Shown one piece after another: positions 18,801-64,000 of a stretch of DNA of 64,000 bases. The stretch's first letter is position 1. Each line of letters begins with the position of its first letter. The stretch is taken from NCBI GenBank assembly GCA_944474755.1, contig OX104115.1, forward strand, positions 58,470,648 to 58,534,647. The letters run 5' to 3'. Source of the stretch: Limnoperna fortunei (lineage: Eukaryota > Mollusca > Bivalvia > Mytilida > Modiolidae). Below the pieces are notes generated by a model. That model was not told the origin of the DNA. It ran no database searches and was given only the letters and a program-made list of their open reading frames with translations. Both the position numbers and the translations under genes were made by a program.

Positions 18801-21800
18801 AATATTGTGAAAGAAAATAATTCCGTAAATACTTGATGAAGATATGTTATTTATACCAGCCAGCGCGAGAGACAGAGCCAGCAGTATAAACTTTTTCTGA
18901 CTTTCTCCCAAATATTTATTTGTAATTTTATTTGGACTGTACTGCTGGATTTAGCTGGAGTAACATAAAAGTACAAAATGTGCACTTTTAAAACTGTTGT
19001 AAACGACTTAACTATCTATGCAATTAATGATTGATACAACATAATATAAAGACTACTTTTAATGTTTTGCTAATCATTATTTATGTCGTTTGCTGCTAAA
19101 GTAATGTACTCGATGTTTATGCCTGTAATTTTTAAAATCATTTTTATCATGTTTTTTTTTATTTTTAATTAAATTTATTATTAAGTAAAACATAGGCATT
19201 TTTATTAATAGTCTGCAATTTTTTTAAATGTTTCTTTACATCTTTTTCTTGAAATGTTGTTGGTTATTTCATGCATTTATGCACTTACAATTTCTTTTTT
19301 TAGATCAAAAGATTTATTGAATAAGTTTGTCACAACGTTTCAGTTTCTATTTAGTAATAAAAGAAAACCTAGTATGTACTAGTCACGGAGTAGATCTCGC
19401 CACCCGATCTTTTGGTCTTTTTTTGTGAAACATTGGCATTTTAAACGTGATAAACGTAACTTTTTTCGATGGATGATAGTAAAATATATCAAGTGAAGCC
19501 TTTGCCATCGATTTTAAAGGAAAAAATAACGACACAATCACCAAAATGGCGAGAATTGCCTCTGTCATTTTAATGGTGAGAACTACTATTATGTGTTGCA
19601 ACAAAATATCAGACGAATCAGTAAAGACAGGGCGCTTGTTAAAGCAAACATTTGAAGCAGTGTCACTTTCAAAGCGATGTAGCTTGACATTTTTAAGTAC
19701 AGAGAAAGTCACTTTGCTAGGCCTGACATTCCAATACAGTTCAGTGTCACTAGCCTAAATGTACATATTTCAATTTGAGGGAACATGTTGGGATGAAAAC
19801 ATATTTTCATAGTCTTAAAGTGCAGAAAACAGAAGCATTATTAAAAGTTGAGCATTTACACGTAATACTCTAATAAATAGGATTCTTACCTGCTTGAATC
19901 TCATTTTCTTTGGCAACTGTAATTGCCTTTCGTCTTTTATACCTGGACGCGTTTTCTTCAATGTATTGACGTCATCGATCACGTTACCGCGAGAAAAAAA
20001 GGTAAATACAAAATTATTGTCTGTTATAATATGTGTCATTATAAATACATTTGACAAATAACCAGCAAATACTTCACTGTTTACGCATTGACATTCAAAT
20101 TCTAAGCAGCAAAGTCGCCTTAATTGTTGCACTCCTTATGTAAATAATTAGGTAGCTTAGTGATTGACCTTTTTAATTTAAGCTTAAATTAAAAAGGTAT
20201 AAAAAAACTAATTTTACAAGACACATTGCAATCTGAACTTATTTCAGGAAACACATAGGCCGAAATATACAATCCACGTACCCTGTACATCAAGTTTGAC
20301 TGATTTTCCGGAACTCTTTCCAAGACTATTTTCAACATAACAGACATATATACCAGAGTCTGTGTAGTCTAAATTGTAGATGGTAAGTGATGGATCCAGA
20401 ACAGTACTACCGTTATACTTTGCACCGTCTTTAACAATGAGCATATTGTCATCTTTCATCCAAGAAACGCCAGTAGGTATAGGATAAGAATTGAAAGAAC
20501 ACTGTATGATAGTGTTTCCACCGATAATAGCTACTACGTTTTCTTGAACTGTATTGACTAGTGGTATATCTATAAATTAGAATGCGCCACGTTTAGCTGT
20601 TTTATATCTATGTGCATTTAAACCATCTGAAGCATTGTGAATGTTATTAAATATTATAAATTAATAATCTCACATCAATTCTTTATTGTACAAAAACACG
20701 TATACTATGTAACCATGTTTGTAGAAAGCAACTACCGTAATGTGATCATACAATTTAATTTAGCTTTATAAAATTAGAGTTCTATGAAAATTTTCATACA
20801 TTCAACGCTTGATTTAAGAAAACATTTGACAATTTTAATTTCAAAAGGATACTATATTTACCCTGTATTTTTAATTCAATATCAGCACTAACAGAAGGAA
20901 CAGACTCTAACAATGATTCACACTGGTAAATTCCAGTATCGTATCTAGTTAGCTGAATTACTGTTAACGATGGAACTGTAATATTACCACCAGAATATCT
21001 GCCACTCCCTATTTTAATGTATACACCGTTAAGTCGCCATTTTAATTCCGAAGCATCGTAGATTACACACTGTAAAGTAACAGAGTCATTTGCTTTTTTC
21101 TCGTAGTTTGAATTCGGAACAGCAGAATCTAAAAAGTATTGTTATCAATGATTTATGCAAACAATTTATAGCAAATGTAATATGACAACAATAATTAGAC
21201 GCTTTTTGGTAAAACAGAAGCACTTCATTAGCTTATTTCTTGTTTAAAATAACTAATTGTAACCATGCAGAAAAAGATAAACGGAAAGATGTACGTACAG
21301 ACGACTTTCAGCGAGGTCACATCACTTTGCTGGCCGAACTTGTTAGACACTAAACATTTATATCCACCTCTGTCCGTAAGGCTAACATTATTGATCAATA
21401 GATGTGGATTTTGGATGGATCCAACGTTGAGGATTATGTTATCTTTATACCAATATACTGCATCAGCGTTCATTACTGTACATTCAATTGTAACATTGTT
21501 TCCTTTTGAAGATACATAATGTTCACGTGCTACATTAGCTTGTGGAATATCTAAAACATGTGCAATTTAACATATTGACGATGATTTACAATGTGTTTGA
21601 AGTTTATTGTCTTCTTTATTTCAAATTATAAAAAGAACAATAGATATTGCCATATTTTGCATCTTTTGCATATTTATTTATAAGCACATTATGGTAATAT
21701 CTTATAGTTTTGATATATGAATAAAACATGTGCTACTTATACAGTCTTTAGAAACCAGTAAAATCATATGCATATTTATTTACACTGATGCCTAGTTTAG

Positions 21801-24800
21801 CTTCAGGTGATGTTTAAAGTAGATTATGTTGTTCGTGTTAAACCCCAAACATTTATTTGAATATCACATATAATTATCACAAAATCACTATAACATAAAA
21901 CATCTGCTTTAATACATACATCCAGCTTCAAGTTGGGTTGATTGATTATTTGTTCCCTCCGTATTTGTCGCATGGCATGTGTACGATCCGCTATCAGATG
22001 CCATCACGTTTGTTACCATTAATGATGGGTCTAAAAGACTTCCACCTACATATCTATTCCCATTCAACCTTGTTCCCTGACCATCTGTCCACCATATGTC
22101 AAAAGCGGCAGGATTACCAGTAACCGCACAGTCCAGTGTAACATTTCCCCCGATAATAGCTAGATATGTGTGGTTCATGATATTAACAGTAGGTATCGCT
22201 ATTAGAAATACACAAGTAAAAACTATATATAAGCATTCGACATAAGCACTGAACCGTTTTTACAGTTGAATGTCAAAATATGTTTTGTGTAATGATTAAA
22301 TTGTGATGAATGTAATTTTAGAAAACGGCCAACACATTAACCAAGTAAAACATAAACGAATTAAAGTTTGCTTAAAATTAAAGGAAATTATAATTTTTCG
22401 CATTGTTCAAGGTAAATTGTTTATTGACTATTCATCTTTTTACATTTTTGTTTCCTTCATATCACCTTATAAATAGCATGGCTGCGCTAAGATGCTTTAA
22501 TTCTGAACAATCTGCTAGCAAACAAAACGCTATTAAGTAGTAACACACACAACAATAAAAATTAATTAGGTATAGCAAAATACTAATTTTCAAAATTGGT
22601 AGAATGTTGCAATCGATAGCATATGTAAACGGTATCCCGTAACGATTATGAAAAGCATGATTATGGTCCCTGTGATACATTCTAAAATCATCAGCATGCT
22701 TCTTGTAATTAGGAGTTTATTAAAATTTCATCATCTGCAAAAGTTCTGATCGTAATTGTTTATCTTTGCTCTGCGACAGTGGTCTTGATGATTGGCATAT
22801 TTCCATTTTTTTTTCAAAGTGTTTGACAAACCACCGTACATGCTAGTCCAGATGAAACGACAATAAATAAATACACGTAATAAATCAAAACTATGCCAAG
22901 ATAAGACAGGTATTATCAGAGCTATTTAGCCCCCTCGCCAGTCTTGTTTATTTTGTCACGTTCATAGATATCGACACTTCAAAATATGCATGTTATGTTT
23001 TCAGTGCTAAGAACGCTTATTGTAAAAAAACAATGAAGGGTATCATTGAAAAAATGTTGAAAATTCCTTTTTGCTGCATTTCTTCTGTTTAATTTTTTAC
23101 TTTTGCGTGCAGTAAGTACGAAGCAAGTATCACTTGATAAATTTTCCATACGTCTATACGCGAGAATTGTCTTGGAAAGTAATTAATACATTTTTGTTAA
23201 ATATGACGGGAGAACATACTGTTTTTCTATGTGCATGGTTGAGATTTTACTATATTAAATTTTGAGTTAAGTATCCAGGGTAATAGCATTTCACTTTGTC
23301 AAAATTTTAGCACTTAAAGCAATAAAAACACAAATGGATTAGATTTTTGTAACTTCTAGCTGCTGTTACGCATCATTATTTTCATATTTGGAAACGATAA
23401 CAGTGAAAACAGGGATTAAACAGCGGTATCATCACAAGAATTTCAGCTAATTGCTGTGATAATTAAATCTTCTCACTGCCTTGCTCCCTGTTAGTGAAGA
23501 CATTTGTTTAATTTTTAATATAACGTTGTGCATAATATTATGTTACGGCTACAACGAACAGATCATACCTATCAAAATTTCACAACACGCCTGTATATTT
23601 CGTGTCATGTAGACTTGAGCATTATGTTCAACTACACGATGACCCCTGTCTATCAATTACATGGTCTTGCATAAACACATACCGAAGAACTAACCACTTA
23701 ACGGTTCCATCATTTAATTCATCGCTATACTAATAACGTTTTTTTTTCAAGATCGTTGGCGAATTTCCATTAAAATAGAAAAAAAAATAAATTGTTCCTT
23801 AATACCTCATTTGCCGTTAACGCATTAAATGATAAACTGATTACATGTTTGCTTACAATCCAATAAGAAATGCTATAGTGGAATTCAGAACAAAGCAAAC
23901 AATAAATCAAAGCGGAAAGGGATTGGTTATCAGGATGAAAAAAAAATAAGTGCAACTGAAAAAGTTATAAGCATAATAGATTTGTGTCGCGGTACAATGT
24001 TTCTTCTCTTTTTTTTAATACGAAGAGGTCTATCTTGCAACAATCGTGGCACTCTGCCATACGTTACCAATTACATATAGCCACAACCCCAACAAGATGA
24101 TCTCACGTATCCGCTACCTGGGTCGGCAATGGGCTGATTGTGAGTCAAATGCTGTGAGCCCAGTATGGTCCCATTCAAATCTAGTTGGTACCTTTGTCCA
24201 ATTATCTTATATTTAATATTTACCGGTTACATTTAATATTATCTTGTTTGACGTTTTGCTATTCACATTACACTGATATTGGCCACTATCATAGACGTCC
24301 AAATTCCGTATAGTTATCCGTAATGCATTAGGAGTACCATATTTGTCACTACTAGCCAGTGTCATCCAGTTGTTTAAATTGTATCTTTGCCATTGATAGT
24401 TAGTACCAGTGTAAGGACATGACCACTCTACAGAAGCTCCTTTACTTTCATAAACTGCAAAAATGTGAATGATTAAAACAAGTTGCATTTAAATTGCCAT
24501 AAGACACCGACATTGTTGAATATCTATCTTGGAATGACTATTCAAACAGAGTATTATCTGCGCAAATATAATAATAACAACATGTAGTGATATTATACAT
24601 TTAATTAAGGTATTGCAAAACATTTCTTTATATTAAAAGCTGACGACTTTGTGCAGGTTTATTTAGAGAGTATTCAGTATTCATTCCGTCCTTGACATGT
24701 AAATTAATAAAACAGCAAAATCAGGTTTTCAAATATTCAATACTAGATTATAGATATTTTCTTCAAGGATAATTACCCCACATATTACTATTTGATTTTA

Positions 24801-30800: not shown

Positions 30801-33800
30801 GTTGAGGGATTGAAGTGCACTGTCGGAAGGTGTACTGGATACCGACCCTATTTGGCAATGTTTGTTAGTTTTTCTACCGAAATATTTGCGCACATTCCAG
30901 CTGCTAGGTGCCACCCCCCACCCACACCATAAAAACTGAACGCCATGATACAGCTACAAAGTACATTGTGCTTTTGTTTATGTTCCACGTCAAACACTAT
31001 TGATTTCAGCCAGATCTGCTCAAAATGTGAGGAACAACTTCACTTTGGACCCATTTAAATGCGGATATGTAATTTCAGAGATTAAAAGGAAGGGGCGCAT
31101 AATTACGCCTTGTCCTCTTTCCTGCCCCCACACATAAAACAATTTAAAAGGTTGTGTTACTCAGAATTCTTTCCTCAGAAGCATGCAACATATACTCTAT
31201 GCTCACCACTTGTTTAGTTATTTACGCAATAGTACTTTTAACATTATGAATAAAATAACTTACCAAGTACATTTAAAAATGTTACTTTGTCTTGACAACA
31301 ATCTTGACAGACATAATAGCCACTGTCAGTAACATTAACATTGCGTATTGTTAACTTTGATATATTATCGATATAATATTTTTTATCATTTGTCAGCATT
31401 TTCCAACCACCAACCACGGCTTGTTGCCATGTTCTAGTAGTGAAAGGACATGTCAATGTGGCATTATTTCCTTGTACTGCATCATCTACAAATATTTAAA
31501 AAAGTCAAAAGTTTCATGTTTATGCTTACATGTATATAATCGGTCTATTATTTTTACTGTTTCAAGTGATCATAATACGATTTACTATTACAGGAATTTC
31601 TGTGTCCTTTTACTACAAATATAAGATGTTGACCATTTTTCATGTGCAACTGTTTCAATTCATTTTGGCAAACATGTTTTATCGACTATGACAGATTAAC
31701 ATGCGTATTATGTTTCCATGGGATTATATGGACAGAAGAGTTTGTGCCATGTAGGTATTTACCAATTTTCAGTAAAGAACTTTCCTCAACACCTACCTCG
31801 AATATGACGAGCTGTTTTTGATACATATCATTCAGAAAACTTTTGCCACATAACTATGAAGATATTCAAGAACCTGGACCGTCCTACATGTAATTTCCTC
31901 GTCTCAGTAATAAAATAGAAATAGTCCTTATCATTTTGGACCATCTGTTTTATATTAGTACCACGATTGCTATATGAGACCAAACATTCTACATGCATCC
32001 AGAGAGGGAGTGATGTAAAACGTTGTTATAGTTTAGTTTGGTCAACCGTTTCTTTATTTCATTCATTCTATTTGGAGTCTACATCCGCAGATTTAAAAGT
32101 GATTGAGCTTTAAAAGATCGACCAATACCATAAAGCAATACACAAGTTGACAAGATTTGATGTAAGACAAGAATTTTCTCGCATTTCAAATAAAAATAAC
32201 AGGAAATAACCGTAGATGACTGATTACATCTACTATGATGATATTGCTAGTTGTACTGTGTTTAGATTTCTGTTGAATAAAGGAAGACTTGGCAATATAC
32301 GTTATGTTTCGGATACAAATAAAGAAAAATAAACCTCGCATCTCGAGTGTAATGTTAAAATAAAAACAATTTTTAGTTTTATGCATATCACAAGCCTTTG
32401 TGCTCAAGCCTTTGTGCTCTGCAAGGCAAAAAACATACATACAGAAATTCAATAAAACAGGCAAGTGCAACTTTTGATTTGAGTGTATGTTTCGTTAATT
32501 TGATCTTTGAAGGCGTTTTTCAGAAACAAAACATAATGATAGTATACAGACAGTGTTGGAATTTTTTGCGATATCGCACCCTGGACGAAAATTTCTCAGC
32601 AAGCCGATGCCGTTGCACTTCTAGGGAAATAATCTGCACGAAATCATTAGAGACAACCGTTTCATAAATCGATAGTCTGAAATTTCTTTATATTAATTGT
32701 CGGTATGTAATTTTAATGTAATGTGTGTTCTTTATTTTAAAATTTTAATCAGTGTTTTAATGCCGGGAATTTTTTTTACAAATAAGTAACTGTTATCCAT
32801 ATACTTGAACAAACATTTTTAGTTTAACATATTAGTAAATCTCAAAATTGTTATGACATAATAAGTACAACAATTATATTAAGTACAACAGCATCAAATA
32901 TTTATCATTGCTTAAATAAAATTTGTATTGGACGAGGATATTTGGACTTTTAGGAACCCTCGCGTATACTCCGGTTACTTCCCTGAATTGATGACATTTA
33001 ATCAAAATAGTCATATCTCTACTAATATAACAGATAGTGACATAGGATCCTAACTATTGATCATCAATCACCAAAACCTTGAAAAAAGTTTAAGGTAAAA
33101 AATCAATTAAGGCCATCTTTTAAATGACTCTTTTTAACAGTAAGATCTCGTAGAATGATTAAATTTAATTTAAGTTGTCGAATCTCAATGACTAGAAAAG
33201 GTATTGAGATCGGATCTTCGCTGTTGTTCATTGTTGACCTTTAAAATACTCAAGGTCAAATTCCTATTTTTAAATTGTTTTCAATTTATAGTAGGGGCAG
33301 TACTAACATAACATAAACTTAACTTTAAAAAAAAGATAGAAAAAAACCAGTCAAGTCGACCGCTTTGACTGGACAGAATTTTGCCATCGTTTGTTATGTA
33401 AAATGCTTGTTACACATACTAAAATGAAAAATGCATTACATGTACTAATACGCATTTGTTTGCAAACTATAATCAATGATTCAAAACGCACCTAACTCAG
33501 AAATTTGACGCCATATCATTTGGGGCAAAATATCTCCAACTAACTAAAAAACTAATTAATCATTTAGTTTATCAATGAGGTTCATATATGGGATTTATTC
33601 TGTACAAAGTCACTGATCAATGTAAATTCTGTTACATTAAATCCAATAAGGGTACCGGGTATGTGTTTAAACTGTTAAGATAACTGCTAATGTTAGTAAT
33701 AAATATTCATAGTAGTCACAATATTCAATTTAGATATACCAGGAAGCGACCTGGTATTAACTTTAAACTTTAAATTGACTAAGTGTATCGTCAACAATTA

Positions 33801-34388: not shown

Positions 34389-34482
34389 TGTATTTTCCTT
34401 GATACCAGTTAACAAGGAAGTGGATATGTACCCCTTTAAATTGTCGTTATAATAAACATGAACACAATAAGTACAATAAAAG

Positions 34483-34499
34483 TCACGTCATTATTTATA
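34483..34499 (-). promoter_or_regulatory. Candidate core promoter of gene A
   Basis: TATAAATA on the minus strand (34492-34499), about 105 bp upstream of the start codon, immediately followed by TGACGTGA, a CRE-like half-palindrome (34483-34490). Placement suits a TATA promoter with a short 5' UTR. Confidence 0.4.
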
Positions 34500-35849: not shown

Positions 35850-35925
35850 AATGCAATCTTAATTGAGAAGGATTTTTCCAACCGCAAGTCGGGGTATTCC
35901 TGCGCCCCCTGTTAAAAGCGGTACT
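35850..35925 (+). mobile_element. SINE body fragment
   Basis: TTTTTCCAACCGCAAGTCGG, then CTGCGCCCCC, resembles the central SINE body only. Intergenic, upstream of gene A. Confidence 0.4.
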
Positions 35926-36374
35926 TAAGCGAAAAGCTTAATTACTGCGTAATTAATAAATTTAACCCCAATTTTTTCCAGCCTAAAATGCAATGATTTT
36001 CTAGAAAAACAGAGACTACAGGTAATTTATTGTACCTTATGTTTAACTGAAAAATATAAGTCATTCTAATTTTATTAAAACCCCACTTAAATACTACTGA
36101 AATATCTTACTAAATTCAATTGATCGTTTTTTTTCAACTGAAAATACACGTACTAAAAAACTGTTACAGTATAAACTATAAATTTCCCCTACTCATTTAA
36201 ATGTCCTTTTATTTAAAATGAAAATCCGCTAATAAACAACTGAAAAAAAACTTGATTCTTTTGATAAACGGTAATAACAAAGTTCTGAATATCAAGGAAC
36301 CTATCAAGAAAGACAAAACACAAACCAACAACCGAACATATAGACTTGACTATGCGCTTTTATAAGCAATTAAC

Positions 36375-36455
36375 TGCCTGCTCTATGTTGATGACGTCGT
36401 TTTGATAGCTAAATCTCAAGAAACTCTTTTAATTATTTTAATAATTATATAATTT
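36375..36455 (+). pseudogene. Reverse transcriptase fragment (YVDD motif)
   Basis: CLLYVDDVVLIAKSQETLL is the catalytic palm motif of a non-LTR reverse transcriptase. Only about 25 codons remain before AT-rich sequence and a stop. Confidence 0.65.
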
Positions 36456-37720: not shown

Positions 37721-37726
37721 TTTATT
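37721..37726 (-). terminator. Candidate polyadenylation signal of gene B
   Basis: AATAAA on the minus strand about 147 nt after the stop codon of gene B. Position is plausible for a short 3' UTR; such hexamers are frequent by chance in AT-rich DNA. Confidence 0.4.
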
Positions 37727-37872
37727 GGGAATGACTGTAATGAAGATAAAACATTGTACAATGCAGTAATGCGGATAGCACGTAAAACATGCCATTCAAA
37801 TATATATAAGCATCTACATCAAACAGTTCAGATCAAATCAATATACACTTGCAAATCTGATAATGGCATATT

Positions 37873-37947
37873 TTAGTCGATAACTGCATATGTATGTTCG
37901 TTCTGTAGAAAGTTATCAATTACTCTGTAACAAAGATCATACTCCTC
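37873..37947 (-). CDS. Gene B: last coding exon
   Basis: 75-nt exon: EEYDLCYRVIDNFLQN, then EHTYAVID and TAA, the eQYxFcyxvvxdyl ending of RPTP D2 domains. Acceptor ATTTTAG, phase 0. Confidence 0.88.
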   Translation of the reverse strand, partial: EEYDLCYRVIDNFLQNEHTYAVID

Positions 37948-49900: not shown

Positions 49901-52900
49901 GCGTGACATTCCCAGTACCGTTAAGGGTCACTAACCTAATTGTACATCTTTAATTTGAGAGAACATGTTGGGATGCAAACACATATTTTCATAGTTGAAA
50001 AGTGCAGCATAATATAACATTTTTAAAGTTGAACCTTCACAGGGAATATTCTTATACATAGGATTCTTACCTGTTTGAATCTCATTTTCTTAGGCAACTG
50101 TGATTGCCTTTCGTCTGCTTTACCTAGACGCGTTTTCTTCCATGTATTGACGTCATCGATTGCGTAACCGCGGGATAAAGGTAAATAAGAAATTATTGCC
50201 TTTTATTATATGAGCGGGCAAGGGATACTGCATTAATTATAAATACATTTGACAAATAACTGCAATACTGCACTGTTTACGCATTGACATTTAAGTATCA
50301 GTCCAGGTAAGAATCAGGCAAAATGCACACATGTGATGGCACATGAAGGAAAAAAACGCAAACTTTTGATCATGGAATTTGATAAAACTATCCAATATAA
50401 CAACATTCTAATTTATTAAAGTTCTGAATTATTTTGCCTTTTTAAGATATAATCATTTGAAATTTAGTTGAATTGTACAGTGAAAAATGCCGGGAAATTT
50501 TCCCGCCAAATTTTTCTCTATGTAACCAGTCAAAAATTATCTAGACAATTGACACTTTTTCAAATGTAAAATCTGGTAAGAATGTGTTTTTATATCAAAA
50601 TGAATGCATCTAAGCCAACAAAGCTAAAAACAAAATTTTTGATGTGCCGCCCACTGCCTGATCCTTAGCTAGAATACTACTTAAGTTCTAAGAAACAAAG
50701 TCGCCTTTAGTGTTGCATTCTGAATGTAAATAAGTAGGTAGCGTAGTGATTGACCTTTTTAAATTAAGCTTAAGTTAAAAAGTTACACATGTCATTAAAG
50801 GTATAAAAAATGTAATTTTACAAGACACATTGCAATCTGAACTTATTTCAAGAAATAAATAGGCCGAACTAATAAATCCACGTACCCTGTACATCAAGTT
50901 TGACTGATTTTCCTGAACTCTTTCCAAGACTGTTTTCAACATAACAGACATATATACCAGAGTCTGTGTAGTCTAAATTGTAGATGGTAAGTGATGGAAT
51001 CACAACAGTACTACCGTTATACTTTACACCGTCTTTAACAATGAGCATATTGTCATCTTTCATCCAAGAAACGCCAGTAGGTTCAGGATAAGAATTAAAA
51101 GAACACTGTATGATAGTGTTTCCACCGATAATAGCTACTACATTTTCTTGAACTGTATTGACTAGTGGTATATCTATAAATTAGAATGTGCCACGTTTAG
51201 TTTGTTTTACATCTATGTGAATTTAAACCATCTGAAGCATTGTGACTGTTATTAAATATTATAAATTAATAATCTAACATCAATTCTTTATTGTACAAAA
51301 ACACGTATACTATGTAAGCCATATGTTTGTAGAAAGCAACCACCGTAAAGTGATCATACAATTTAATTTAGCTTTCTAAAATGTGCGTTCTATGAAAATT
51401 TTCATACATTCAACGCTTGATTTAAGAAAACATTTGACAATATTAATTTAAAAAGGATACTATATTTACCCTGTATTTTTAATTCAATATCAGCACTAAC
51501 AGAAGAAACAGACTCTAACAATGATTCACACTGGTAAATTCCAGTATCGTATCTAGTAAGCTGAATTACTGTTAACGATGACACTGTAATATTACCACCA
51601 GAATATCTGCCACTCCCTATTTTAATGTATACACCGTTAAGTCGCCATTTTAATTCCGAAGCATCGTAGATTACACACTGCAAAGTAACAGAGTCATTTG
51701 CTTTTTTCTCGTAGTTTGAATTCGGAACAGCAGAATCTAAAAAATATTGTTATCAATGCTTTATGCAAACAATTTATATCAAATGTAATATGACAACTTT
51801 AATTAGACGCTTTTAAATAAAACAGAAGCACTTCGTTAGCATATTTCTTGTTTAAAATAACTAATTGTAACCATGCAGAAAAAGATAAACGAAACAGATG
51901 TACGTACAGACGACTTTCAGCGAGGTCACATCACTTTGCTGGCCGAACTTATTAGAAACTAAACATTTATATCCACCTCTGTCCGTAAGTCTAACATTAT
52001 TGATCAATAGATGTGGATTCTGGATGGAGCCAACGTTGAGGATTATGTTATCTTTATACCAATATACTGCATCGGCGTCCGTTACTGCACATTCAATTGT
52101 AACATTGTTTCCTTTCGTTAATACATAATGTTCACGTGCTACTTTAGCTTGTGGAATATCTAAAAAATGTGCACTCATTATTTAAAGGAATGCAATTAAA
52201 CATATTGACGATGATTTACAATATGTTTGAAGGTTATTGTCTTCTTTATTTCAAATTATAAAAAGAACAATAGATATTGTTATACCTTACTGTATTAGTA
52301 ATTGATTTAATTGGATGAAATAAGGTCACGTGACGTGAAATAATCTGGGTATTTTTCTTCAAATTCGTACAAAAGTTGAATAACCTTTTCAAAAACCCAT
52401 GTCCATTGAATAACCCTATTATTCACCGGTGAATAACTCTTGGTGAATAACCCTTGAAATAAACAAGTTTCAACATAAACATGATAAAAACACAAATACA
52501 CAGCATATGATATTCCAGTCCACTGTTTGTTCGGTATAATAAAACAATTACGGCCCTTGAAATCAGTGAATATCAAAATTGTCAACCTCGCTGGTTGACA
52601 ATTTTAGATATTCACCTCTTCCAAGGGCCGTAATTGTATATTGCCATATTTTGCATCTTTGGTATATTTATTTATAAGCACATTATGGTAATATCTTATA
52701 GTTTTGATATATAAATAAAACATGCGCTACTCAGACAGTCTTTAGAAACCAGTATAATCATATGCATATTTATTTACACGTATGCCTAGTACTAGCTTCA
52801 GATGATGTTTAAAGTAGAATATGTTGTTTGTGTTAAACTCGAAACATTTATTTGAATATCACATATAATTATCACAAAATCAGTATAACACAAAACATGT

Positions 52901-55900
52901 GCTTTAATACATACATCCAGCTTCAAGTTGGGTTGATTGATTATTTGTTCCTTCCGTATTTGTCGCATGGCATGTGTACGATCCGCTATCAGATGCCATC
53001 ACGTTTGTTATCATTAATGATGGGTCTAAAAGACTCCCACCTACATATCTATTCCCATTCAACCTTGTTCCCTGACCATCTGTCCACCATATGTCAAAAG
53101 CGGCAGGAATACCAGTAACCGCACAGTCCAGTGTAACATTTCCCCCGATACTAGCCAGATATGTCTGGTTCAGGATATTAACAGTAGGTATCGCTTTTAG
53201 AAATACATAAGTAAAAACTATATATAAGCATTCGACATAAGCACTGAACCGTTTTTACAGTAGAATGTCAAAACATGTTTTGTGTAATGATTAAATTGTG
53301 ATAAATGTAATTTTAGAAAACGGCCAACACATTAACCAAGTAAAACAGAAACGAATTAAAGTTGCTGAAAATTAAAAGAAATAATAATTTTTCGCCTGGT
53401 TCAAGGTAAATTGTATATTGACTATTCATCTTTCTTACATTTTTGTTTCCTTCGGCCAAATAAGAAAATAATAACACATATCACCTTATAAATAGCATGG
53501 CTGCGCTAAGATGCTTTAAGTCTGAACAATCTGCTAGCAAACAAAATGCCTTAAGTAGTAACACACACAAACAATAAAAAATAATTAGGTTAAGCAAAAT
53601 ACTAATTTTCAAAATTGGTAGAATGTTACAATCGATAGCATATGTAAAAGGTATCCCGTTACGATTATAACAAAGCATGATTATGGTCCCTGTGATTCAT
53701 TCTAAAATCATCAGCATGCTACTTGTAATTAGGAGTTTATTAAAATTTAATCAACTGCAAAAGTTCTGATCGTAATTGTTTATCTTTGCTCTGCGACAGT
53801 GGTTTTAATGATTGGTATAGTTCGTTTTTTTCAAAGTGTTAATTTTTTTACGCTTGCATTTGACAAACCACCGTACATGCTAGCACCGATGAAGTGACAA
53901 TAAATAAATACACGTAATAAATCAAAACTATGCCAAGATAAGACAGGTATTATCAGAGCTATTTAGCCCCCTCGCCAGTCTTGTTTATTTGTTCCCGTTC
54001 ATAGATATCGACACTTCAATATATGCATGTTATGTTTTCAGTGCTAAGAACGCTTATTGTAAAAAAAACCACTAAAAGGTATCATTGGAAAAATGTAGAA
54101 AATTCCTTTTTGATGCATTTCTTCTGTTTAATTTGTTACTTTTGCGTGCAGTAAGTACGAAGCAAGTATCACTTGATAAATTTTCCATACGTCTATATGC
54201 GAGAATTGTCTTGGAAAGTAATTAATACATTTTTGTTAAATACGACGCGAGAACACATTGTTTTTCTATGTGCATGGTGTAGATTCAGCCAGATATGGTA
54301 TACCTTTTTGATCTTGCATGGTAATAATTTCTCAAATTATTTGAATATTAATGATTTGGGTTAGAACGCCCCTGATTTTTCTTTATTAGATGAAACGCGC
54401 TGTTGGTATATTTAATTACAGAGACTATGTGTCCTTGATGAGATTTTACTATATTAAATTTTGAGTTAAGTATCCAGGGTAATAGCATTTCACTTTGTCA
54501 AAATTTTAGCACTTAAAGCAACAAATTACAAAAACGTTTATTATATTTTTGTAACTTCTAGCTGCTGTTACGCATCATTTATTTTCATGTTTGGAAACGA
54601 TAACAGGGAACACAGGGATTAAACAGCGGTGTCATCACAAGCATTTCAGCTAATTGCTGTGATAATTAAACCTTCTCACTGCCTTGCTCCCTGTTAGTGC
54701 AGACATTTGTTTTATTTTTTAATTTTACGTTGTGCATAATCTTATGTTACGGCTACAACGAACAGATCATATCTATCAAAATTTCACAACACTCCTGTTT
54801 ATTTCGTGTCATGTAGACTTTAGCATTATGTTCAAATACACGATGACCCCTGTCTATCAATTACAGACATGTAGTGCGACATCAATTACTTTGTCTAGCA
54901 TAAACAAATACCGAAGAACTCTAAATATTTATAATCATGACCTTCAGAGTGAACCACTTAACGGTTCCGTTATTTCATTCAACGCAATACTAATAACGTT
55001 ATTTTCATGATCGTTGGTGAATTTACATTAAAATTGCAAAAATATATCGTTTCTCAATACCTCATTTGCCGTTAACGCATTAAATGATAAACTGATTACA
55101 TGTTTGCTTACAATCCAATGAGAAATACTAGAGTTGTATTCAAAACAAAAGAAACCAATAAATCAAAGCGGAAAGGGATGGGTTATCAGGAGGAAACAAA
55201 AAGTGTAACTGAAAAAGTAATAAGCATAATAGATTTCTGTAGAGGCTACAATGATTCTTCTCTTTTTTTTAATACGAAGAGGTCTTATCTTGCAACGATC
55301 GTGGCACTCTGCCATACGTTACCAAATACATTTAGCCACAACCCCAACAAGATGATCTCACGTATCCGCTACCTGGGTCGGCGATGGGCTGCTTGTGATT
55401 CAAATGCTGTGTACCCGCCCAGTATTGTCCCATTCAAATCTAGTTGGTACCTTAGTCCAATTATCGTATATTTAATATTTACCGGTTACATTTAATAATA
55501 TTTTGTTTGATGTTTTACTATTCACATTACACTGATATTGGCCATTATCATAGACGTCCAAATTCCGTATAGTTATCCGTAATGCATTTGGGGTACCATA
55601 TTTGTCACTACTAGTCAGTGTCATCCAGTTGTTTGAAATGTATCTTTGCCATTGATAGTTGGTGCCAGTGTAAGGACATGACCACACTACAGTAGCTCCT
55701 TTACTTTCATAAACTGAAAAAAATGTGAATGATTAAAAAATGTTGCATTTTCATATCCATAAGACACCGACAATGTGGAATGTCTTTCTTGGAATTATTT
55801 TTAAACAATATTATCTGTATTATCTGAGCAAATATAATAATATCAACATGTAGTGATATTATACATTCAATTAGGGTATTACAAAACATTTTTTTATTTA

Positions 55901-58900: not shown

Positions 58901-61633
58901 ACCGTCATTTGCATCGTTGCATAATCTTCTAGACTTGTATATTATTATTTTTATTTGTTTATGCGGTATCGTCATGTTTGTCGATCCAATACTAAATAGG
59001 TGTACTGGTTAAGCAGCTTTCTTTAAAACTCTTTATATATATATATATATATATATATCGTTCAAATCAGGATTATGTCCTCTTTGCAGCTACGCAAAGA
59101 AACAATTTAGCTTGGACTGCATAAAATTACATTCGTAAATCCATATAAATTAATTCTAAAGGTTCTAGATCAGCGAATTAGCATTATTCGTACCTTTAGT
59201 TTCCTATTTTGTACAATAGAAAATAAATTTGATTGCAATCAAAATAGTTATTTATGCAGCTATAATTGCGTATTTAATGTAGGTCCAATTGTGATTTTTT
59301 CAAATATATTACTCTTCTTGACTTTGATTACTTGATTTATTGATACAATTACAGAAGATTGTTATTTCTATTAGAAGTCTGTAAAAAACACATCGCAAAA
59401 AGTTTTTATAGCACCGATGTGTCCCAGATGTGCACAACTGCATTAAAGTTGTACTTCCTGCTGCCCATTTCAATGTGACGTCAGAACAAAACCTGGTGTG
59501 GTATGGCGTTGTCTTCCATGAAGTTGGGTTTCGTCGAAATTGGATGATAATCAAAATTAGGGAGTGCGTTTGTTTTTAGAATTGTTTTTTAAAATGTCAT
59601 ATGAAATTCATCTTGAAGCCATTACTGTGACACCAACAATATTGCATTCTTCATAAGCAGTCTTTGGTTTCCGTCAATAACAAACTCAACCGTTCGTTAC
59701 ATGCAATATAAATCGGCATCGTAGGACCAAAGGAAGTTTTCAAAGAAGCTGTATTCCATTGAAGAAGGCTGGGCACAATTGTAAGCGTGCTGTTTTTATG
59801 TCTCTTTCTGTAATATTATTGCTGAAGGCACAACGTTTGACAAACGGTGTCATTTCAACGCAGCTTCATTGTAACAAACGGTTTCTGGTTACACGTTGGT
59901 AAAGAACCATGTCTTCTCGATCAGATCTCACTGGGGGTCTTCCAGGAACTGGACGGTTCTTAACATAATTTGTATCGTTTAATATTTCCTTATGATTTGA
60001 CTAATCATTGAATATTAGTTAACTACACTTAGAGAAAATTGTCTTGAGTGACATCCCGCCTCTGTCATCCAAATCATTTGCCATTGATCCTTATTGGAAA
60101 GCAAAGTCGGACCCGTTTCAGCAATTTTAAAACCTGATTAAAACCAACCAGCGTACATAGACATGAAAAATGACACGTACAAAAATATCAAGTTCCTGTG
60201 AGTGAAAATTTTTGCAGACGATAATGTTTTTTAACAAAAAATTCATTCTACATTTGTTTTGAAAAATAAACTGCAAATACATGTCTGAATTATGGTTATT
60301 CTATCATATACATGCATTTGTGAGTGTTATATACGAAGTACGCATTATTAAAAGTACTGATTGGTTTCTACGTCTGCCATTTTGATACAATATTTAGATC
60401 TTTAAATTAAATAAACTTTAAATTAATGTTTCGTTATGTTTGCGGCCAATTTTAGCATACTTGTTCGTTATAAATGTCGCCAGCTGTTATTTTAGGAAAC
60501 TCCTGACGAGCCAGTCAGCGTAAAACAACAGCAACGTTTTTGTAAAAATCAACATTTCATTGAATTATAGTTCAGCAGCAATAGCGTGCTATACTTTTAA
60601 AGTTTAACTTTATAATGAACCAAACAATTGTCTTAAACTGGCGTTGTCGAAAATCATGTCTGGACTAAAAATAAATTAATGGTTTTCTCCACATATGCTT
60701 TTTCTTAGTTTTGTATAACAAACTGTATGGCTCTTGAATACTTCGATGTGTCTCTCTACATTACCCAATAACAATGAAACTTTTATTATAGCAAAAATAC
60801 AATAAACGTATAAGTTATTGTCGTACATATAATTTGTATTGTATATTCAAGTCACACCCAATTTGTTTATTTTTTATCACAACATCTAAATATAAGTACT
60901 TGCACAATCCAAATATACTTTTCTTGTAAACAAGAGCCTTAGTGGTCAGTCTACTTTTAATCGCGTTTAGTCGACACTGAGTTTGAGGGATCGAAGTTCA
61001 CTGTTAGAAGGTGTACTCGACACCTTCCCTAACTTTCAATTATTGTCAGTTTTTCTACCGCAATTTTTGCGCACATTCCAGCTGCTACCTGCCTCCCCCC
61101 AATAAAAACTGGACGGAATGATGCAGCTAAAAATTACGTGCTTTTGTTTATGTTCCACATCAAACACTGTTGATTTTGACTAGATCTACTCAAAATGTGA
61201 GGAACAACTTCACTTTGGACTCATTTAAATACGGATATGTAATTACAGAGGTAAAAAAGAAGCGCATTGTCCCCCTCCCCCCGCCCCAAGTAAAGCAATT
61301 AAACAAGTTGTGTTACTCAGAACTCTTTCCTTAGAAGAATGCAACATATACTCTATGCTGACCACTTGTTATTTACGCAATACTTGTAACATTATGAATA
61401 AAATAACTTACCAATTACATTTAAAAATGTTAATTTGTCTTGCCAACGATCTTGACAGACATAATAGCCACTGTCAGAAACATTTACATTGCGTATAGTT
61501 AACTTTGATATATTATCGATATAATATTTTTCATCATTTGTCAGCATTTCCCAACCACCAACCACGGCTTGTTGCCATGTTCTTGTAGTGAAAGGACATG
61601 TCAATGTGGCATTATTTCCTTGTACTGCATCAT
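37873..61633 (-). CDS. Gene B: six-Ig receptor with a single degenerate phosphatase domain (5' end off-window)
   Basis: Paralogue of gene A in head-to-tail tandem. In the window: Ig1 to Ig6, a transmembrane exon, a linker exon with a YINP motif, and one phosphatase fold ending at a TAA (37873-37875). The Ig exons match gene A exactly in length (222, 231, 279, 252, 267, 288 nt). The phosphatase part is D2-like: its DFW exon has the 129-nt, phase 0-0 structure of A's D2, and the seven D1 exons of A have no counterpart. The region aligning with [10 protein letters not shown] reads ALIGSNGDDFPACG, lacking the catalytic Cys and Arg, so catalysis is not expected. The signal-peptide exon should lie just beyond 64000. 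The juxtamembrane exon was not found, and the transmembrane exon has a poor donor (GTTGTT), so the link between the two halves is less certain than either half. Confidence 0.82.
38769..38910 (-). CDS. Gene B: exon after the degenerate P-loop
   Basis: 142-nt exon (phase 2-0): SNGDDFPACGALGVCHEVLH, then HSFSILQIAVRLKKNRQELF and QTF, matching the Ixxxv+xlRxxRxxmvQT end of the fold. The GxGR[TS]G Arg is absent. Borders TTGTAG and GTAAGT. Confidence 0.88.
38911..40632. other. Gene B intron
   Basis: AT-rich. A short ACTCATCAGTGCCGCTC stretch near 39490 looks like the edge of a decayed hammerhead repeat. Nothing else recognised. Confidence 0.5.
40633..40766 (-). CDS. Gene B: exon over the missing WPD loop and catalytic Cys
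   Basis: 134-nt exon (phase 0-2): VMRVKLYKTTNWKVEQYIDI, then ELGLVALIG. Where active PTPs have WPD there is NWK, and where they have VHC there is VAL: both the general acid and the nucleophile are gone. Borders AACAG and GTTAGT. Confidence 0.87.
41102..41224 (-). CDS. Gene B: D2-like exon with FFP replacing YWP
   Basis: 123-nt exon (phase 0-0): ISEFFPNTTEP replaces KCxxYWP; SFKVEICYFE and FEFVLDISNK continue the PTP beta-sheet pattern. Borders TTTGCAG and GTATGT. Confidence 0.87.
41524..41652 (-). CDS. Gene B: D2-like DFW exon
   Basis: 129-nt exon (phase 0-0): GYIITTVPHQSQIDDFWTMI then VGYIVLLLHGVET. Same length, phase and motif order as gene A exon 21. Borders AATAG and GTAACT. Confidence 0.9.
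41822..41936 (-). CDS. Gene B: candidate exon equivalent to NRVFL...NYINA
   Basis: Reads DDDVHAEITVENPKINLYEF, then a longer tail ending CMLS at a GTGAGG donor in phase 0, which fits the next exon. Similarity to the PTP motif is weak (INLYEF for YINANY). The upstream junction phase was not resolved: a candidate preceding exon at about 42590-42632 (GATIAEENITKAV) lacks a clear donor. Confidence 0.45.
42275..42490 (+). mobile_element. SINE copy in gene B intron
   Basis: TGCAGGCAGGGTGCGCTCGA and CTACCGCAGGTCCATCGGGG, then a CAAACAAACAAACA tail. The box A region is truncated. Confidence 0.65.
43099..43168 (-). CDS. Gene B: N-terminal exon of the D2-like domain
   Basis: 70-nt exon (phase 0-1): ALERESKPILRDETDYEIIN. 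It occupies the place of [16 protein letters not shown] in gene A. Borders CTAG and GTAAAT. No KNR motif is present. Confidence 0.65.
43682..43795 (-). CDS. Gene B: exon leading into the phosphatase fold
   Basis: 114-nt exon (phase 0-0) ending ARDFIRILQDKSSLSQQI then RKEYE, equivalent to the REEYK or NEEFR stretches that precede D1 and D2 in gene A. Acceptor TTTAG, donor GTACTT. Confidence 0.75.
44268..44341 (-). CDS. Gene B: cytoplasmic linker exon with YINP
   Basis: 74-nt exon (phase 1-0) encoding ELHLYDETQRSHS then TDTYINPSKEL. The entry phase is the same as that of gene A's linker, so a phase 2-1 juxtamembrane exon is expected before it. The YxN motif is kept although the rest differs. 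Acceptor TTTTTAG, donor GTAAGT. Confidence 0.75.
44604..44694. repeat. Inverted repeat (34-bp arms)
   Basis: Left arm 44604-44637 and right arm 44661-44694 are imperfectly complementary (CTGTAAAAGGTGCTAG against CTAGCACCTTTTGAAG) around a 23-nt loop, immediately before the GIY-YIG fragment. Confidence 0.7.
44708..44980 (+). pseudogene. Penelope-like element GIY-YIG endonuclease fragment
   Basis: CIYILTCGTYKFHYVGEKGT, then PLTRHLKSTSHSF, WIHQFNTLEPDELNGR and a stop: the Y-(I)-YVG core and the late REtxWI..L.T..P..LN signature of GIY-YIG domains at the C-terminus of Penelope-like retroelements. An in-frame TGA at 44900-44902 breaks it. A hairpin lies just upstream. Confidence 0.7.
45264..47570. 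mobile_element. Two related elements marked by GGAAAGACCTT
   Basis: AAGGTCTTTC at 45264 and GGAAAGACCTT at about 45283, 46250 and 47555 delimit two head-to-tail units of about 1.0 and 1.3 kb; two boundaries are followed by the same ATTATTATTTTCTTTT tract. The interior is rich in GTCAAAGGTCA and TGACCTTTGACC repeats. No coding potential. It occupies the gene B intron where the juxtamembrane exon is expected. Confidence 0.55.
48316..48421 (-). CDS. Gene B: transmembrane exon
   Basis: 106-nt exon (phase 1-2). EPLKSISIVG leads into a helix VVGGVFGGIVAVVLVVITVF ending VYAKR. Acceptor AAGTTGCAG. The donor position reads GTTGTT, poor against the GTAGTT of gene A. Read-through would add about eight residues (LFDIILFAQ) before a stop, giving a tail-less receptor. 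Confidence 0.8.
49174..49333 (-). pseudogene. Truncated extra Ig6-like exon in gene B
   Basis: Second half of an Ig domain closely related to Ig6 ([10 protein letters not shown], then TDSSIYICYVENQIG and KLVVQG), followed by a usable GTGTAC donor. The first half, including the B-strand Cys, the core Trp and the acceptor, is missing: upstream sequence is AT-rich and unrelated to Ig. No matching fragment is recognisable at the corresponding place in gene A. Read as a decayed third Ig6 copy between Ig6 and the transmembrane exon. Confidence 0.75.
50297..50685. mobile_element. ~390-bp insertion with terminal inverted repeats
   Basis: Present only in copy B, between the segments matching 20100 and 20103 of copy A. 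The ends carry TAAGAATCAGGCA and TGCCTGATCCTTA, imperfect inverted repeats of about 20-27 bp. No ORF. Confidence 0.6.
50886..51173 (-). CDS. Gene B: Ig domain 6 exon
   Basis: 288-nt phase 1-1 exon with WMKDDNM and [17 protein letters not shown], ending KLDVQG; donor GTACGT. Nearly identical to gene A. Confidence 0.92.
51470..51736 (-). CDS. Gene B: Ig domain 5 exon
   Basis: 267-nt phase 1-1 exon with [17 protein letters not shown] and [11 protein letters not shown]. Two Pro to Ser changes are the only differences I find from gene A. Confidence 0.92.
51908..52159 (-). CDS. Gene B: Ig domain 4 exon
   Basis: 252-nt phase 1-1 exon with [19 protein letters not shown] and [13 protein letters not shown]; acceptor TTTTTAG, donor GTACGT. 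Changes cluster in the first third of the domain. Confidence 0.91.
52280..52637. mobile_element. 358-bp insertion with terminal hairpin and ATATTG duplication
   Basis: Absent from copy A, where ATATTGCCATATTTTG is uninterrupted. Flanked by ATATTG at 52274-52279 and 52638-52643. Its right end is a long hairpin (about 52545-52637: ATTACGGCCCTTG against CAAGGGCCGTAAT, with ATTGTCAACC/GGTTGACAAT inside). Non-autonomous DNA element. Confidence 0.75.
52915..53193 (-). CDS. Gene B: Ig domain 3 exon
   Basis: 279-nt phase 1-1 exon with [16 protein letters not shown] and [12 protein letters not shown]; acceptor TCTAAAAG, donor GTATGT. Confidence 0.92.
54367..54406 (+). ncRNA. Decayed hammerhead remnant
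   Basis: CGCCCCTGATTTTTCTTTAT, then GATGAAACGCGC, keeps the outline of the motif but has lost the GA of the core and stem II. It lies inside a ~165-bp insertion (54272-54437) absent from copy A. Confidence 0.5.
55483..55713 (-). CDS. Gene B: Ig domain 2 exon
   Basis: 231-nt phase 1-1 exon with [12 protein letters not shown] and DNGQYQCN; acceptor TTTTTTTCAG, donor GTAAAT. About seven replacements relative to gene A. Confidence 0.91.
58107..58520. repeat. Direct plus inverted repeat (large palindrome)
   Basis: A ~150-bp unit (58107-58256), a partial second copy (about 58257-58376), then the unit inverted (58376-58520), giving near-perfect arms of about 115 bp around a short centre. Each unit includes CACTGACGAAGCCTGTTGG followed by TCAGGCGAAA, which has CTGANGA, a GCCTG/CAGGC stem and GAAA as in a hammerhead core, although stems I and III are not evident. 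Found only in copy B. Confidence 0.8.
58536..58995 (+). mobile_element. Hammerhead-bearing dispersed retroelement fragment
   Basis: Opposite-strand relative of 14810-15310, inside the B-only insertion of about 57720-59093. It is followed by a TA dinucleotide run at about 59033-59059. Confidence 0.7.
58616..58657 (+). ncRNA. Hammerhead ribozyme in a dispersed element
   Basis: CTGATGA, stem II GTC/GAC with loop TTAAGTA, GAAA and ACGCGCGT intact. Stem I is shortened (CCA/TGG). Confidence 0.75.
60935..61130 (+). mobile_element. SINE copy shared with copy A
   Basis: Orthologue of 30755-30965 at the same place relative to Ig1. Confidence 0.65.
61412..61633 (-). CDS. Gene B: Ig domain 1 exon
   Basis: 222-nt phase 1-1 exon with LTCPF and DSGYYVCQ; acceptor TTTGTAG, donor GTAAGT. 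Seven amino-acid differences from gene A, including CC to RW and two Lys to Glu changes. Confidence 0.92.
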
Positions 61634-64000
61634 CTACAAATAAAAAAGTCAAAAGTTTCATGTTTATGCTTACATGTATAAAATCTGTATAAGGTTTCAA
61701 TGCAAACAAGTGATTATAATACGATTAACTATTACAGGTACCAACCTTGGAAATTTCTGTTTCACTTTTCTATAAATATAAAAGGTAGACCATGTGCAAA
61801 TGTTTCACTTCATTTCGTCGAATATGTTTTGTCGACTATTACAGATTAAAATTCCACACTTCATTCGTATTTTGTTTACATGCGACTATATGGACAGCAA
61901 AGCTAATTTTCCGCCATCTTGGTATTTAAAATTTTCAGTAAACAACTTACCAAAACGTCCTAATTTTCTGGTCCCAGTAAAAAAAAGTAAAGTCCAAATC
62001 ATTGTGAACAATCTGTTTTATATTAGTATCTTGATTGTTATATGAGACCAAACGTTCTATATGCATCCAGAGAGTGTGATGTAAACCGTTGCTATCGTTT
62101 AGTTTGGTCAACCGTTTCTTAATTTCATTCATTCTATTTGGAGTCTACATCCACAGATTCAAAAGTGATTGAGTTTCAAAAGATCGATCAATGCCATAAA
62201 GCAATACACAATTTGACAAGATTTGATGTAAAAAGACAAGATTTTCTCATTTTTCTCGCATTTCGAATACAAATAAGAGGAAATAACCGCAGATGACTGA
62301 TTACATCTTATCTGTTGACATTGCTGGTCGTACTGTGTTTAGATTTCTGTTGAATAAAGGAAGAATTTACAATATACGTTATGTTTCGGATACAAACAAA
62401 GAAAAAATAAACCTCGCATCTCCAGTGTAATGTTAAAATCAAAACAATTTTTAGTTTAATGCATATGCCAAGTCTTTATACTCAGCAAGGCAAAAACAGA
62501 CATACAGAAAGTCCAAAAACACAGGAAAGTGCACATTTTGATTTGTGTGTATGTTTCGTTAATTTGATATTGTGAAATCGTTTTTCGGATAAGCAAAACA
62601 TAACGATAGTATACAGTGTGGGAATGTTTTGCCATATCGCGCCCTGGACGAATATTTCTCCACAAGCGGATGCCGTTGCACTCCTAGTGAAATAATCTGC
62701 ACGGAATCATCAGGGACAAACGTTTCATAACTTGATAGAGTCTGGAATTGCTTTATATTAATTGTCGGTATGTAATTTCAATGTAATGTATGTTCTTTAT
62801 TTTAAAATTTTAATCAGTGTTTTAAATTTTTTTTTACAAATAAGTAACTGTTATCCATATACTTTAACACAAATTCTTAGTTTAAAATCTTAGTAAATCT
62901 CAATATTGTTTTGACATAATAAGAACAACAATTATATTAAGTACAACAGCATCAAATTTTTATCTTTGCCTAATTAGAATTTTCATTGGACGAGGATATC
63001 AAGACTTTAAGGAACCCTCGCGTATACTCCGGTTACTTCCCTGAATCGATGACATTTATTCTAAATAGTCACATCGCCGTTAATATAACATATAGGGACA
63101 TAGCATCCTAACTATTTATCATCAATCACCATGACCTTGAAAAGGTTTAAAGTAAAAAAAATCAAGGTCATCTTTTAAATGACTCTTTGTAACTGTAAGC
63201 TCCAGTAGAACGATTAAATTAATTATAAGTAGCCGAATCTCAATAACTAGAACAGGTATTGAGATCGGATCTTCGCTGTTCATTGTTGACCTTTAGAATA
63301 CTCAAGGTCAAAGTTATATTTTTAAATTGTTTTCAATTTATAGTAGGGGCAGTACTAACATACAAAACTTAACTTAAACAAGTCAAAATATCTGCTTTTG
63401 ATATAAAAAATTCCAAACAGCCAGTCAAGTTGACCGCTTTGACAGGACAGAATTTTGTCAAAATCTCTGCTTTTGTCGTCGTTTGTTATGTAAAAAGCTT
63501 GTTTTAGTACGTTACAATTAATTTCTGGAGGTTAAATAAGCATAAAATACAATATTTTAAAAACAAATACTACAATGAAATTCTGCATTACTAATACGCA
63601 TTTGTTTGCAAACTGTTATCAATGATTAAAAACGTACCTAACCCAGAAATTTGACCCCATATCATTTGGGGCAAAATATGTCCAGAAAACTAAAACCAAA
63701 ATTGTCGCGAACGAGGGAGCGAAGGAGTCTAATGTAATATTGTAATGTAAAATATATACATTCTGACCCCCTAATCCAATGAGAACATATCACTGCCATT
63801 TCTGTCAAAAGTTTGAAAGCTGTCATCGGAGATATGTTATCTCTGTTTTGAACTATTTTCAGTCATGATCAATTAATTTATTACGTCATGACTTTGTTGG
63901 GACGTTTCGGTGCATTCATTTGATTGATTAGTCTGTAACGGACATCTCATTGTTACTGATGACGTTAGATTGTAAACAAGTACTTATTCATAAAAACATT
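61634..64000. other. Gene B intron 1 (partial)
   Basis: Matches gene A intron 1 up to about 63690; from there to the edge the sequence (GTCGCGAACGAGGGAGCG onwards) has no match in copy A. No exon found; the signal-peptide exon is presumably beyond 64000. Confidence 0.6.

Follow-up and report, generated by a model that had tools for sequence, protein, structure and literature searches.

Organization of the locus

A 64,000-nt stretch of the genome of the bivalve Limnoperna fortunei (assembly GCA_944474755.1, contig OX104115.1, positions 58,470,648 to 58,534,647; hereafter the window) was analysed, and two receptor genes, here named A and B, were modelled in it, both on the minus strand and with B lying 5' of A (Table 1). 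A signal peptide, an ectodomain of six immunoglobulin (Ig) exons and an upstream region are common to both genes, and they are joined to two types of cytoplasmic tail, one with an intact first phosphatase domain (D1) in gene A and one with a dead domain of the second type (D2) in gene B. A tblastn search with A and B over 334 kb, from -70 kb to 264 kb and thus spanning the window, located four receptors, A and C being of the catalytic type and B and D of the dead type. The initial annotation of the window had described A and B as a tandem pair; the pairing stands, as part of a four-gene array.

Table 1. Coordinates of the receptor genes and related features at the locus (TM, transmembrane; extended, extended window coordinates)
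Feature	Position	Strand	Evidence or remark
Gene A exon 1, signal peptide	34319..34388	-	ATG, donor GTAAGT, phase 1; counterpart exon in B, C and D beyond the window
Gene A Ig1 exon	31264..31485	-	AG/GT splice sites, phase 1-1
Gene A Ig2 exon	24224..24454	-	AG/GT splice sites, phase 1-1
Gene A Ig3 exon	21920..22198	-	splice sites, Pfam Ig families
Gene A Ig4 exon	21299..21550	-	splice sites, Pfam Ig families
Gene A Ig5 exon	20862..21128	-	AG/GT splice sites, phase 1-1
Gene A Ig6 exon (final ectodomain exon)	20282..20569	-	splice sites, Pfam V-set stretch
Gene A block with AB|CD tree	20240..23635	-	matching B stretch ~50.8-54.7 kb; read as gene-conversion tract
Gene A TM exon	16487..16598	-	exon model
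Gene A juxtamembrane exons (n=2)	15918-15994, 13049-13275	-	exon model
Gene A catalytic D1, eight exons	1894..12031	-	Pfam PF00102 3.3e-92; best PDB match PTPRF/LAR 3.3e-122
Gene A D2 start, three exons	706..1651	-	exon model and flank extension
Gene B signal-peptide exon	65160-65229 (extended), outside the window	-	homology to gene A exon 1
Gene B Ig1 exon	61412..61633	-	exon model
Gene B Ig2 exon	55483..55713	-	exon model
Gene B Ig3 exon	52915..53193	-	exon model
Gene B Ig4 exon	51908..52159	-	exon model
Gene B Ig5 exon	51470..51736	-	exon model
Gene B Ig6 exon	50886..51173	-	exon model
Relic 3' half of older Ig6 exon, at inferred recombination junction	49172..49324	-	homology end and Ig6 tree
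Gene B TM exon	48316..48421	-	exon model
Gene B juxtamembrane exons	47816-47871, 44268-44341, 43682-43795	-	exon model
Gene B D2-type pseudophosphatase exons, overall	37873..43168	-	PF00102; PTPRZ D2 match; paralogue D open throughout
Gene B tail exons, first four	43099-43168, 42962-42991 (uncertain), 42589-42632, 41524-41652	-	
Gene B tail exons, last four	41102-41224, 40633-40766, 38769-38910, 37873-37947 with stop	-	
Gene C, catalytic (G000:C5)	162959 to about 118.6 kb (118584-162959, extended)		
Gene D, dead	207152 to 183339 (extended)		
Orphan dead tail 1	68817-74038 (extended)		no ectodomain found
Orphan dead tail 2, partly inverted	209425-213435 (extended)		no ectodomain found

Gene A shows the features of a receptor tyrosine phosphatase (RPTP), namely a signal peptide and a single TM segment (both recognized by eye), an Ig ectodomain and a D1 with the HCX5R signature. 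In D1 the P-loop (HCSAGIGRT) and the QTADQY motif are intact, and the Pro of the WPD loop is replaced by Thr with the Asp retained. The gene exits the left edge of the window within D2, which runs on to about -1.5 kb; near -3.8 kb lies a probable last exon, of which the frame was seen and the splice sites were not located. Read from this flank, D2 contains VVSCDGAKNCG, with the Cys present and the Arg absent. Gene A is, on these motifs, an RPTP with an intact D1 that is predicted to be catalytic. Four tandem units of ~160 bp occupy window positions 3304-3971, in the intron preceding the last D1 exon.

The D1 of gene A is closest among solved structures to PTPRF/LAR and PTPRS (PDB search), a likeness to the LAR-type (R2A) RPTPs. 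However, R2A ectodomains, as described in PMC10815196, consist of three Ig and five to nine fibronectin type III (FN3) domains, whereas the Pfam search of the gene A ectodomain listed Ig families and no FN3 at E values up to 0.01. With six Ig exons and no FN3 listed, gene A does not show the ectodomain of the LAR/R2A subfamily.

The tail of gene B matches PF00102 (2.4e-18, profile positions 33-232), and its best PDB match is the second domain of PTPRZ (5.2e-14), followed by PTPRG. When compared with gene A, it matched D2 (24% identity, E 4e-13) and not D1 (E 0.98), and two of its exons, of 129 and 123 nt, are equal in length to the matching D2 exons of A. For these reasons it was not regarded as a decayed copy of the whole cytoplasmic part of A. 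The P-loop position of gene B reads IGSNGDDFPACG, with IGSNGDDFP where the catalytic type has HCSAGIGRT, so that both the catalytic Cys and Arg are gone. Gene B combines a match to the phosphatase family with loss of the catalytic residues, as a pseudophosphatase does, and its predicted tail is a D2-only pseudophosphatase with no D1. The 30-nt exon at 42962-42991 is uncertain, since gene D has no AG there; it could be skipped in frame. Two more dead genes elsewhere have GIGVPVCG and IGFPVCG in the P-loop exon, which alone was read, with Arg replaced in both and the Cys codon expected at the end of the preceding exon.

The motif TDYEII is common to the tails of B and D (window 43099-43168 in B), which could be due to chance in so short a motif. 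It fits the TxYxxV/I consensus of the immunoreceptor tyrosine-based switch motif, although this is weak evidence. No immunoreceptor tyrosine-based activation motif (ITAM) was seen among the juxtamembrane Tyr contexts inspected.

Near-identical ectodomains on unlike tails

Exon by exon, A and B agree in the lengths of their six Ig exons (222, 231, 279, 252, 267 and 288 nt), all of which are in phase 1-1 with AG/GT splice sites. The two ectodomains are 93.8% identical over 513 amino acids, with per-exon values of 89.7-97.7% using B as query against the exons of A. DNA identity is 0.943-0.981 per Ig exon and 0.732 for the TM exon. Equal Ig exon lengths and a protein identity of about 90-98% had been reported in the initial annotation, together with moderately alike TM exons and barely alignable cytoplasmic exons; the values obtained here agree with this description, the tails aligning only through D2. 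The assignment of one catalytic and one dead tail was likewise borne out by the intact motifs of A and the loss of Cys and Arg in B, with the amendment that the dead tail is a D2-type domain alone.

The homology between A and B, which is far above chance, is colinear and includes the introns (19141-33549 versus 49324-63695 by blastn), broken by a satellite stretch in A at 27.25-30.04 kb. Noncoding identity is 0.945 around Ig3-Ig6 (20283-23635), 0.86 at 19500-20239, directly beyond the last Ig exon, and 0.563 at 16230-19140, on the TM side. This sharp fall rules out uniform divergence across the ectodomain/tail boundary, one of two results that had been named as able to refute the proposed pairing. 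Linkage, near-identical ectodomains and unlike tails, the combination expected of paired receptors, are all found in A and B. The TM segments of both genes contain the glycine pattern GGVxGGIVAVV. GxxxG is a helix-pairing motif, and the shared pattern could support pairing of the A and B helices.

The satellite-like array of gene A (window 27240-30124, ~8 units spaced 331-379 bp) lies in the intron between Ig1 and Ig2. It is missing at the matching place in B, and a related piece is present at 17687-17780.

Constraint on the dead tail and state of the array

The ratio of nonsynonymous to synonymous changes per site (dN/dS) between the dead tails of B and D is 0.31 with the 30-nt exon left out (excess of synonymous changes, p 3e-4). 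Values of 0.33 (p 4e-5) and 0.36 (p 2e-4) were obtained for the A-C tail and the A-B ectodomain, respectively. Identity between the B and D tails is 0.960 in exons and 0.901 in introns, and indels are multiples of three in 3/3 cases in exons and 19/111 in introns. These values point to purifying selection on the dead tail of B, which appears to be maintained as coding sequence.

Gene D is open from start to stop (906 amino acids, counting the 30-nt exon that lacks AG in D). In gene C, Ig2 has lost 1 bp and Ig6 is interrupted by an in-frame stop, and those tail exons of C that were read are open; either this gene is dying, or there is an assembly error, or both symmetric exons are skipped. In orphan dead tail 1 the five coding exons read are all open, with a dN/dS to B of 0.32. 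A lone signal-exon match was found at 216.1-216.2 kb, and a weak TM-like match (E 0.009) at 222.7 kb. To the left of gene A (about -5092 to -5616), open frames with RYIDDVLSL look like a reverse transcriptase fragment.

Switch of tree topology beyond the last Ig exon

In the four-way alignment, identity per alignment window is 0.80-0.97 for all pairs of genes between the region preceding the signal exon and Ig6. Past a window of mixed character (20.3-19.9 kb), it remains at 0.87-0.97 for A-C and B-D and drops in the cross-type pairs to 0.82-0.86, then 0.71-0.75 and then 0.54-0.57, with 0.65-0.68 in the window holding the TM exon. Informative sites at 20240-23635 support AB|CD in 67 cases, AC|BD in 5 and AD|BC in 4, the corresponding numbers at 19141-20239 being 1, 48 and 5. 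The switch falls between 20240 and 20136, ~40-150 bp past the last Ig exon; it is seen on noncoding sites alone (Fisher p 1.6e-24), and ultrafast bootstrap (UFBoot) support was 100 in each of five block trees. The stretch at 33-34.9 kb also favours AB|CD (23/6/3 sites).

Exchanges have turned the ectodomain part into a mosaic, with blocks of differing topology, but have not done so in the tail part, where the genes group by type. Homogenization of ectodomains across tail types was found for A and B, and is not distinct for C and D. The initial annotation had pointed to immune paired receptors, whose ectodomains are kept similar by duplication or gene conversion; for A and B the data support duplication plus conversion.

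Traces of a proposed recombination joining the ectodomain to the dead tail

The homology between A and B breaks off at position 19141 of A, corresponding to position 49324 in B, where the 3' half of an older Ig6 exon is found as a relic (Table 1). This relic is 74% identical to the Ig6 of A, the same half of B's own Ig6 being 96% identical to that of A. Gene D holds the same relic at the same junction, 92% identical to that of B. In the Ig6 tree the relic clusters with C10:54.74, a dead receptor (78-80% amino acid identity; UFBoot 93 and 98), and not with the Ig6 exons of the C5 array (67-73%), which would be the outcome of a replacement of the ectodomain that the dead gene originally had. Use of the relic as an exon was considered, as it is open in B and D and preceded by AG, but no pyrimidine tract was seen and the changes between B and D affect 6 synonymous and 5 nonsynonymous codons. 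It was taken as a relic. In addition, the minus-strand stretch 34305-43046, comprising the end of the dead tail, the intergenic region and the upstream region of A, has a second copy at 65146-74038, upstream of B, with 81-95% identity in the individual pieces.

Judging from this layout, one tandem duplication of ~30.2 kb, reaching from within the old Ig6 of the dead gene to the post-Ig6 intron of the catalytic gene, would account for both the junction and the repeated upstream stretch. It would have placed the upstream region, signal peptide and ectodomain of the catalytic gene onto the dead tail; subsequent gene conversion between A and B would have held the ectodomains alike, and what remains of the older copy would be the orphan dead tail that lies upstream of B. 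Outside C5, the tail of B is nearest to the dead tails at C12:61.2-61.3 (71-74% identity in one exon, 60-64% in two others). The kin of B's tail and of the relic Ig6 (C10:54.74) differ, and the analysis arrived at no single history fitting both.

Related receptors elsewhere in the genome

The genome-wide searches covered 1.335 Gb in 285 contigs and the best candidates were scored, so that all match counts are lower bounds. At least 101 matches to the six-Ig ectodomain, at least 94 to the A-type catalytic tail and at least 111 to the B-type dead tail were obtained. The exon at the dead P-loop position occurs at least 27 times at no fewer than 26 places (four in the C5 array, two of these being orphan tails). 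For the catalytic P-loop exon the number of places is 15 or more, to which an intronless two-domain gene on C4 is added; these places are our own count, and the remoter dead matches could be second domains of other receptors.

A sample of 10 of the 22 Ig6-type matches outside C5 gave, together with A-D, 14 loci, 5 catalytic and 9 dead, with tail type outside C5 assigned by position and order. In the Ig6 tree of these loci, catalytic and dead types are mixed in three groups on two chromosomes. On C10, the catalytic locus 10.92 and the dead locus 10.54, ~0.38 Mb apart, are 93% identical in Ig6 (UFBoot 98/100), and the catalytic locus 10.83 is 83% and 80% identical to the dead loci 10.63 and 10.72 (UFBoot 89/100). 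Identity across groups is 0.51-0.73, relics left out. Each of the five catalytic Ig6 exons is nearest to a dead-type exon in both trees. The label test on this tree gave 5 type changes of a possible 5, against an average of 4.3 with shuffled labels; there is no clustering by type, and no significant excess of mixing. Several groups of receptors in the genome seem to employ the matched live/dead design.

Two catalytic receptors with very similar match patterns lie in opposite orientation on C12 (G000:C12, 24.03-24.05 Mb on the minus and 24.85-24.86 Mb on the plus strand); an inverted duplication is possible, as is a haplotype artefact of assembly. PF00102 exons are clustered on C1 (7.7-8.9 Mb and 84.2-84.7 Mb), C12 (68.6-69.2 Mb) and C10 (4.6-11.4 Mb). 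There seems to be a large RPTP expansion in this genome, of which the Ig family described here is only a part.

Discussion

We consider it moderately probable that A and B are a matched receptor pair of recombinational origin, in which both would see the same ligand, A dephosphorylating and B competing. Both receptors would bind this ligand on the same cells; A would dephosphorylate its targets, B would compete with A for the ligand and, via its D2, may hold or pair with A's substrates or A itself, and the A:B ratio would set the signal. As B has a D2-type domain without D1, the likely mechanism shifts towards substrate or partner binding, and B might either hinder or help A.

Precedents are found among the R2B phosphatases. 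PTPRU, a dead RPTP, is described as binding the substrates of its active relatives and reportedly protects them, its D2 alone being enough to bind one substrate (PMC7320164), and the D2 of PTPRK is described as recruiting Afadin (PMC9640194). The likeness lies in a dead RPTP that competes with active paralogues and in D2 as a substrate-binding domain; the difference is that PTPRU, according to PMC7320164, retains D1 and D2, whereas gene B has no D1. By analogy, a receptor whose tail is a D2 only, with ectodomain and upstream region in common with A, suits the role of competing for ligand and substrate. The ectodomains of PTPRU and PTPRK are not known to be tandem-converted copies of each other, unlike those of A and B.

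Paired receptors of vertebrate immunity have inhibitory and activating tails. The closest parallel for the recombination is CD300A/CD300C, related Ig-superfamily receptors with unlike tails whose ectodomains are described as held alike by gene conversion (PMC12447643). Pairs of the CD300 type exert opposite effects via inhibitory or activating motifs or partners, whereas A and B carry in their own tails an RPTP or a D2-only remnant.

Several points weigh against a matched pair. The tree at 24.5-31 kb is AD|BC (28 versus 6 and 6 sites), so that exchange reaches beyond neighbours. In the Ig3-Ig6 introns C-D identity (0.926) does not exceed that of B-C (0.925) and A-C (0.918) distinctly, which gives no clear neighbour signal for C-D, and a single A-B conversion suffices for the AB|CD sites. 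The ectodomain of C is broken, which leaves a single intact catalytic gene in the array. Given the 24% identity of the D2 domains of A and B, common substrates of both are a proposal only. In the rest of the genome, the other groups rest on one Ig exon in 10 of 22 matches with tails assigned by position, and the dead nearest neighbour of all five catalytic exons is weak by itself and not significant, as 9 of the 14 loci are dead. Finally, the pairing was read from the DNA sequence, and a common ligand and opposed signals, which paired receptors are expected to have, are predictions for A and B.

One important question is whether the likeness of the ectodomains might be a mere by-product of a recombining tandem array, in which ectodomains convert or cross over and the unlike tails, which cannot, would stay apart anyway, with no functional pairing. 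The conversion tract spans introns as well as exons, block topologies vary along 35-20 kb and the dN/dS of the A-B ectodomain (0.36) reflects ordinary constraint only, all of which this explanation could accommodate. We nevertheless hold it to be doubtful, since the dead tail is kept under constraint and catalytic and dead types are mixed in three groups on two chromosomes, with 93% identity between C10 10.92 and 10.54 despite their distance. Decay of B into a pseudogene could be suspected from the absent catalytic residues, the broken copies in the array (the C ectodomain and two orphan dead tails) and the 30-nt tail exon without AG acceptor in D. Still, the reading frames of B and D are uninterrupted between signal peptide and stop, AG/GT flank all exons but the 30-nt one, which is skippable in frame, the tail has a dN/dS of 0.31, higher identity in exons than in introns and exon indels in frame, and similar dead-tail exons occur at 26 or more places in the genome; that B is a pseudogene is hardly credible.

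The remaining alternatives concern how a functional B would act. It might be a positive co-receptor, its D2 presenting substrates to the D1 of A in mixed ligand-bound clusters and so helping A. In chimeras, the D2 of PTPRU is described as recruiting Afadin for dephosphorylation by an active D1 (PMC7320164), and the glycine pattern shared by the TM segments could support the required pairing; as hetero-pairing is hypothetical and the two D2 domains are so dissimilar, we regard this role as unlikely. A single combinatorial locus, in which read-through from B splices its ectodomain exons into the tail of A, would be compatible with the phase 1-1 Ig exons, with TM exons that both accept phase 1 and with the position of B 5' of A on the same strand. 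It is very improbable, however, as a signal exon and an upstream region are present separately for each gene, and B ends in tail exons and a stop that belong to it.

If the matched pair of A and B is extended to the other groups, a multi-locus recognition system can tentatively be envisaged, possible though not favoured at present, in which each ectodomain specificity would exist twice, once with a catalytic RPTP tail and once with a dead tail that is D2-only. The two would be re-matched by conversion and by transfer of the ectodomain, including the upstream region and signal peptide. This would be a phosphatase counterpart of the pairs built on ITAMs and on immunoreceptor tyrosine-based inhibitory motifs (ITIMs), serving immune or self/non-self recognition. 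Botryllus fester and the fester co-receptor, and cnidarian allorecognition genes, are comparable in that they are described as multigene families organized in haplotypes, whose members include putative activating and inhibitory types (PMC12065747); the Botryllus co-receptors differ in having other domains and ITIM/hemITAM tails, and A-D have been seen in the sequence of one genome. Among the titles and abstract openings listed by literature searches of mostly open-access scope, none describes such a bivalve phosphatase/pseudophosphatase receptor system, which does not establish its absence from print.

If this interpretation of A and B is true, phosphatase/pseudophosphatase paired receptors in an invertebrate would represent a design evolved on another signalling chemistry. 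Traces of the recombination that survive in the sequence would then illustrate a way in which such pairs can arise in one step. The locus would also offer a natural experiment on the function of RPTP D2 without D1, and concrete candidate genes for recognition tests in bivalves.

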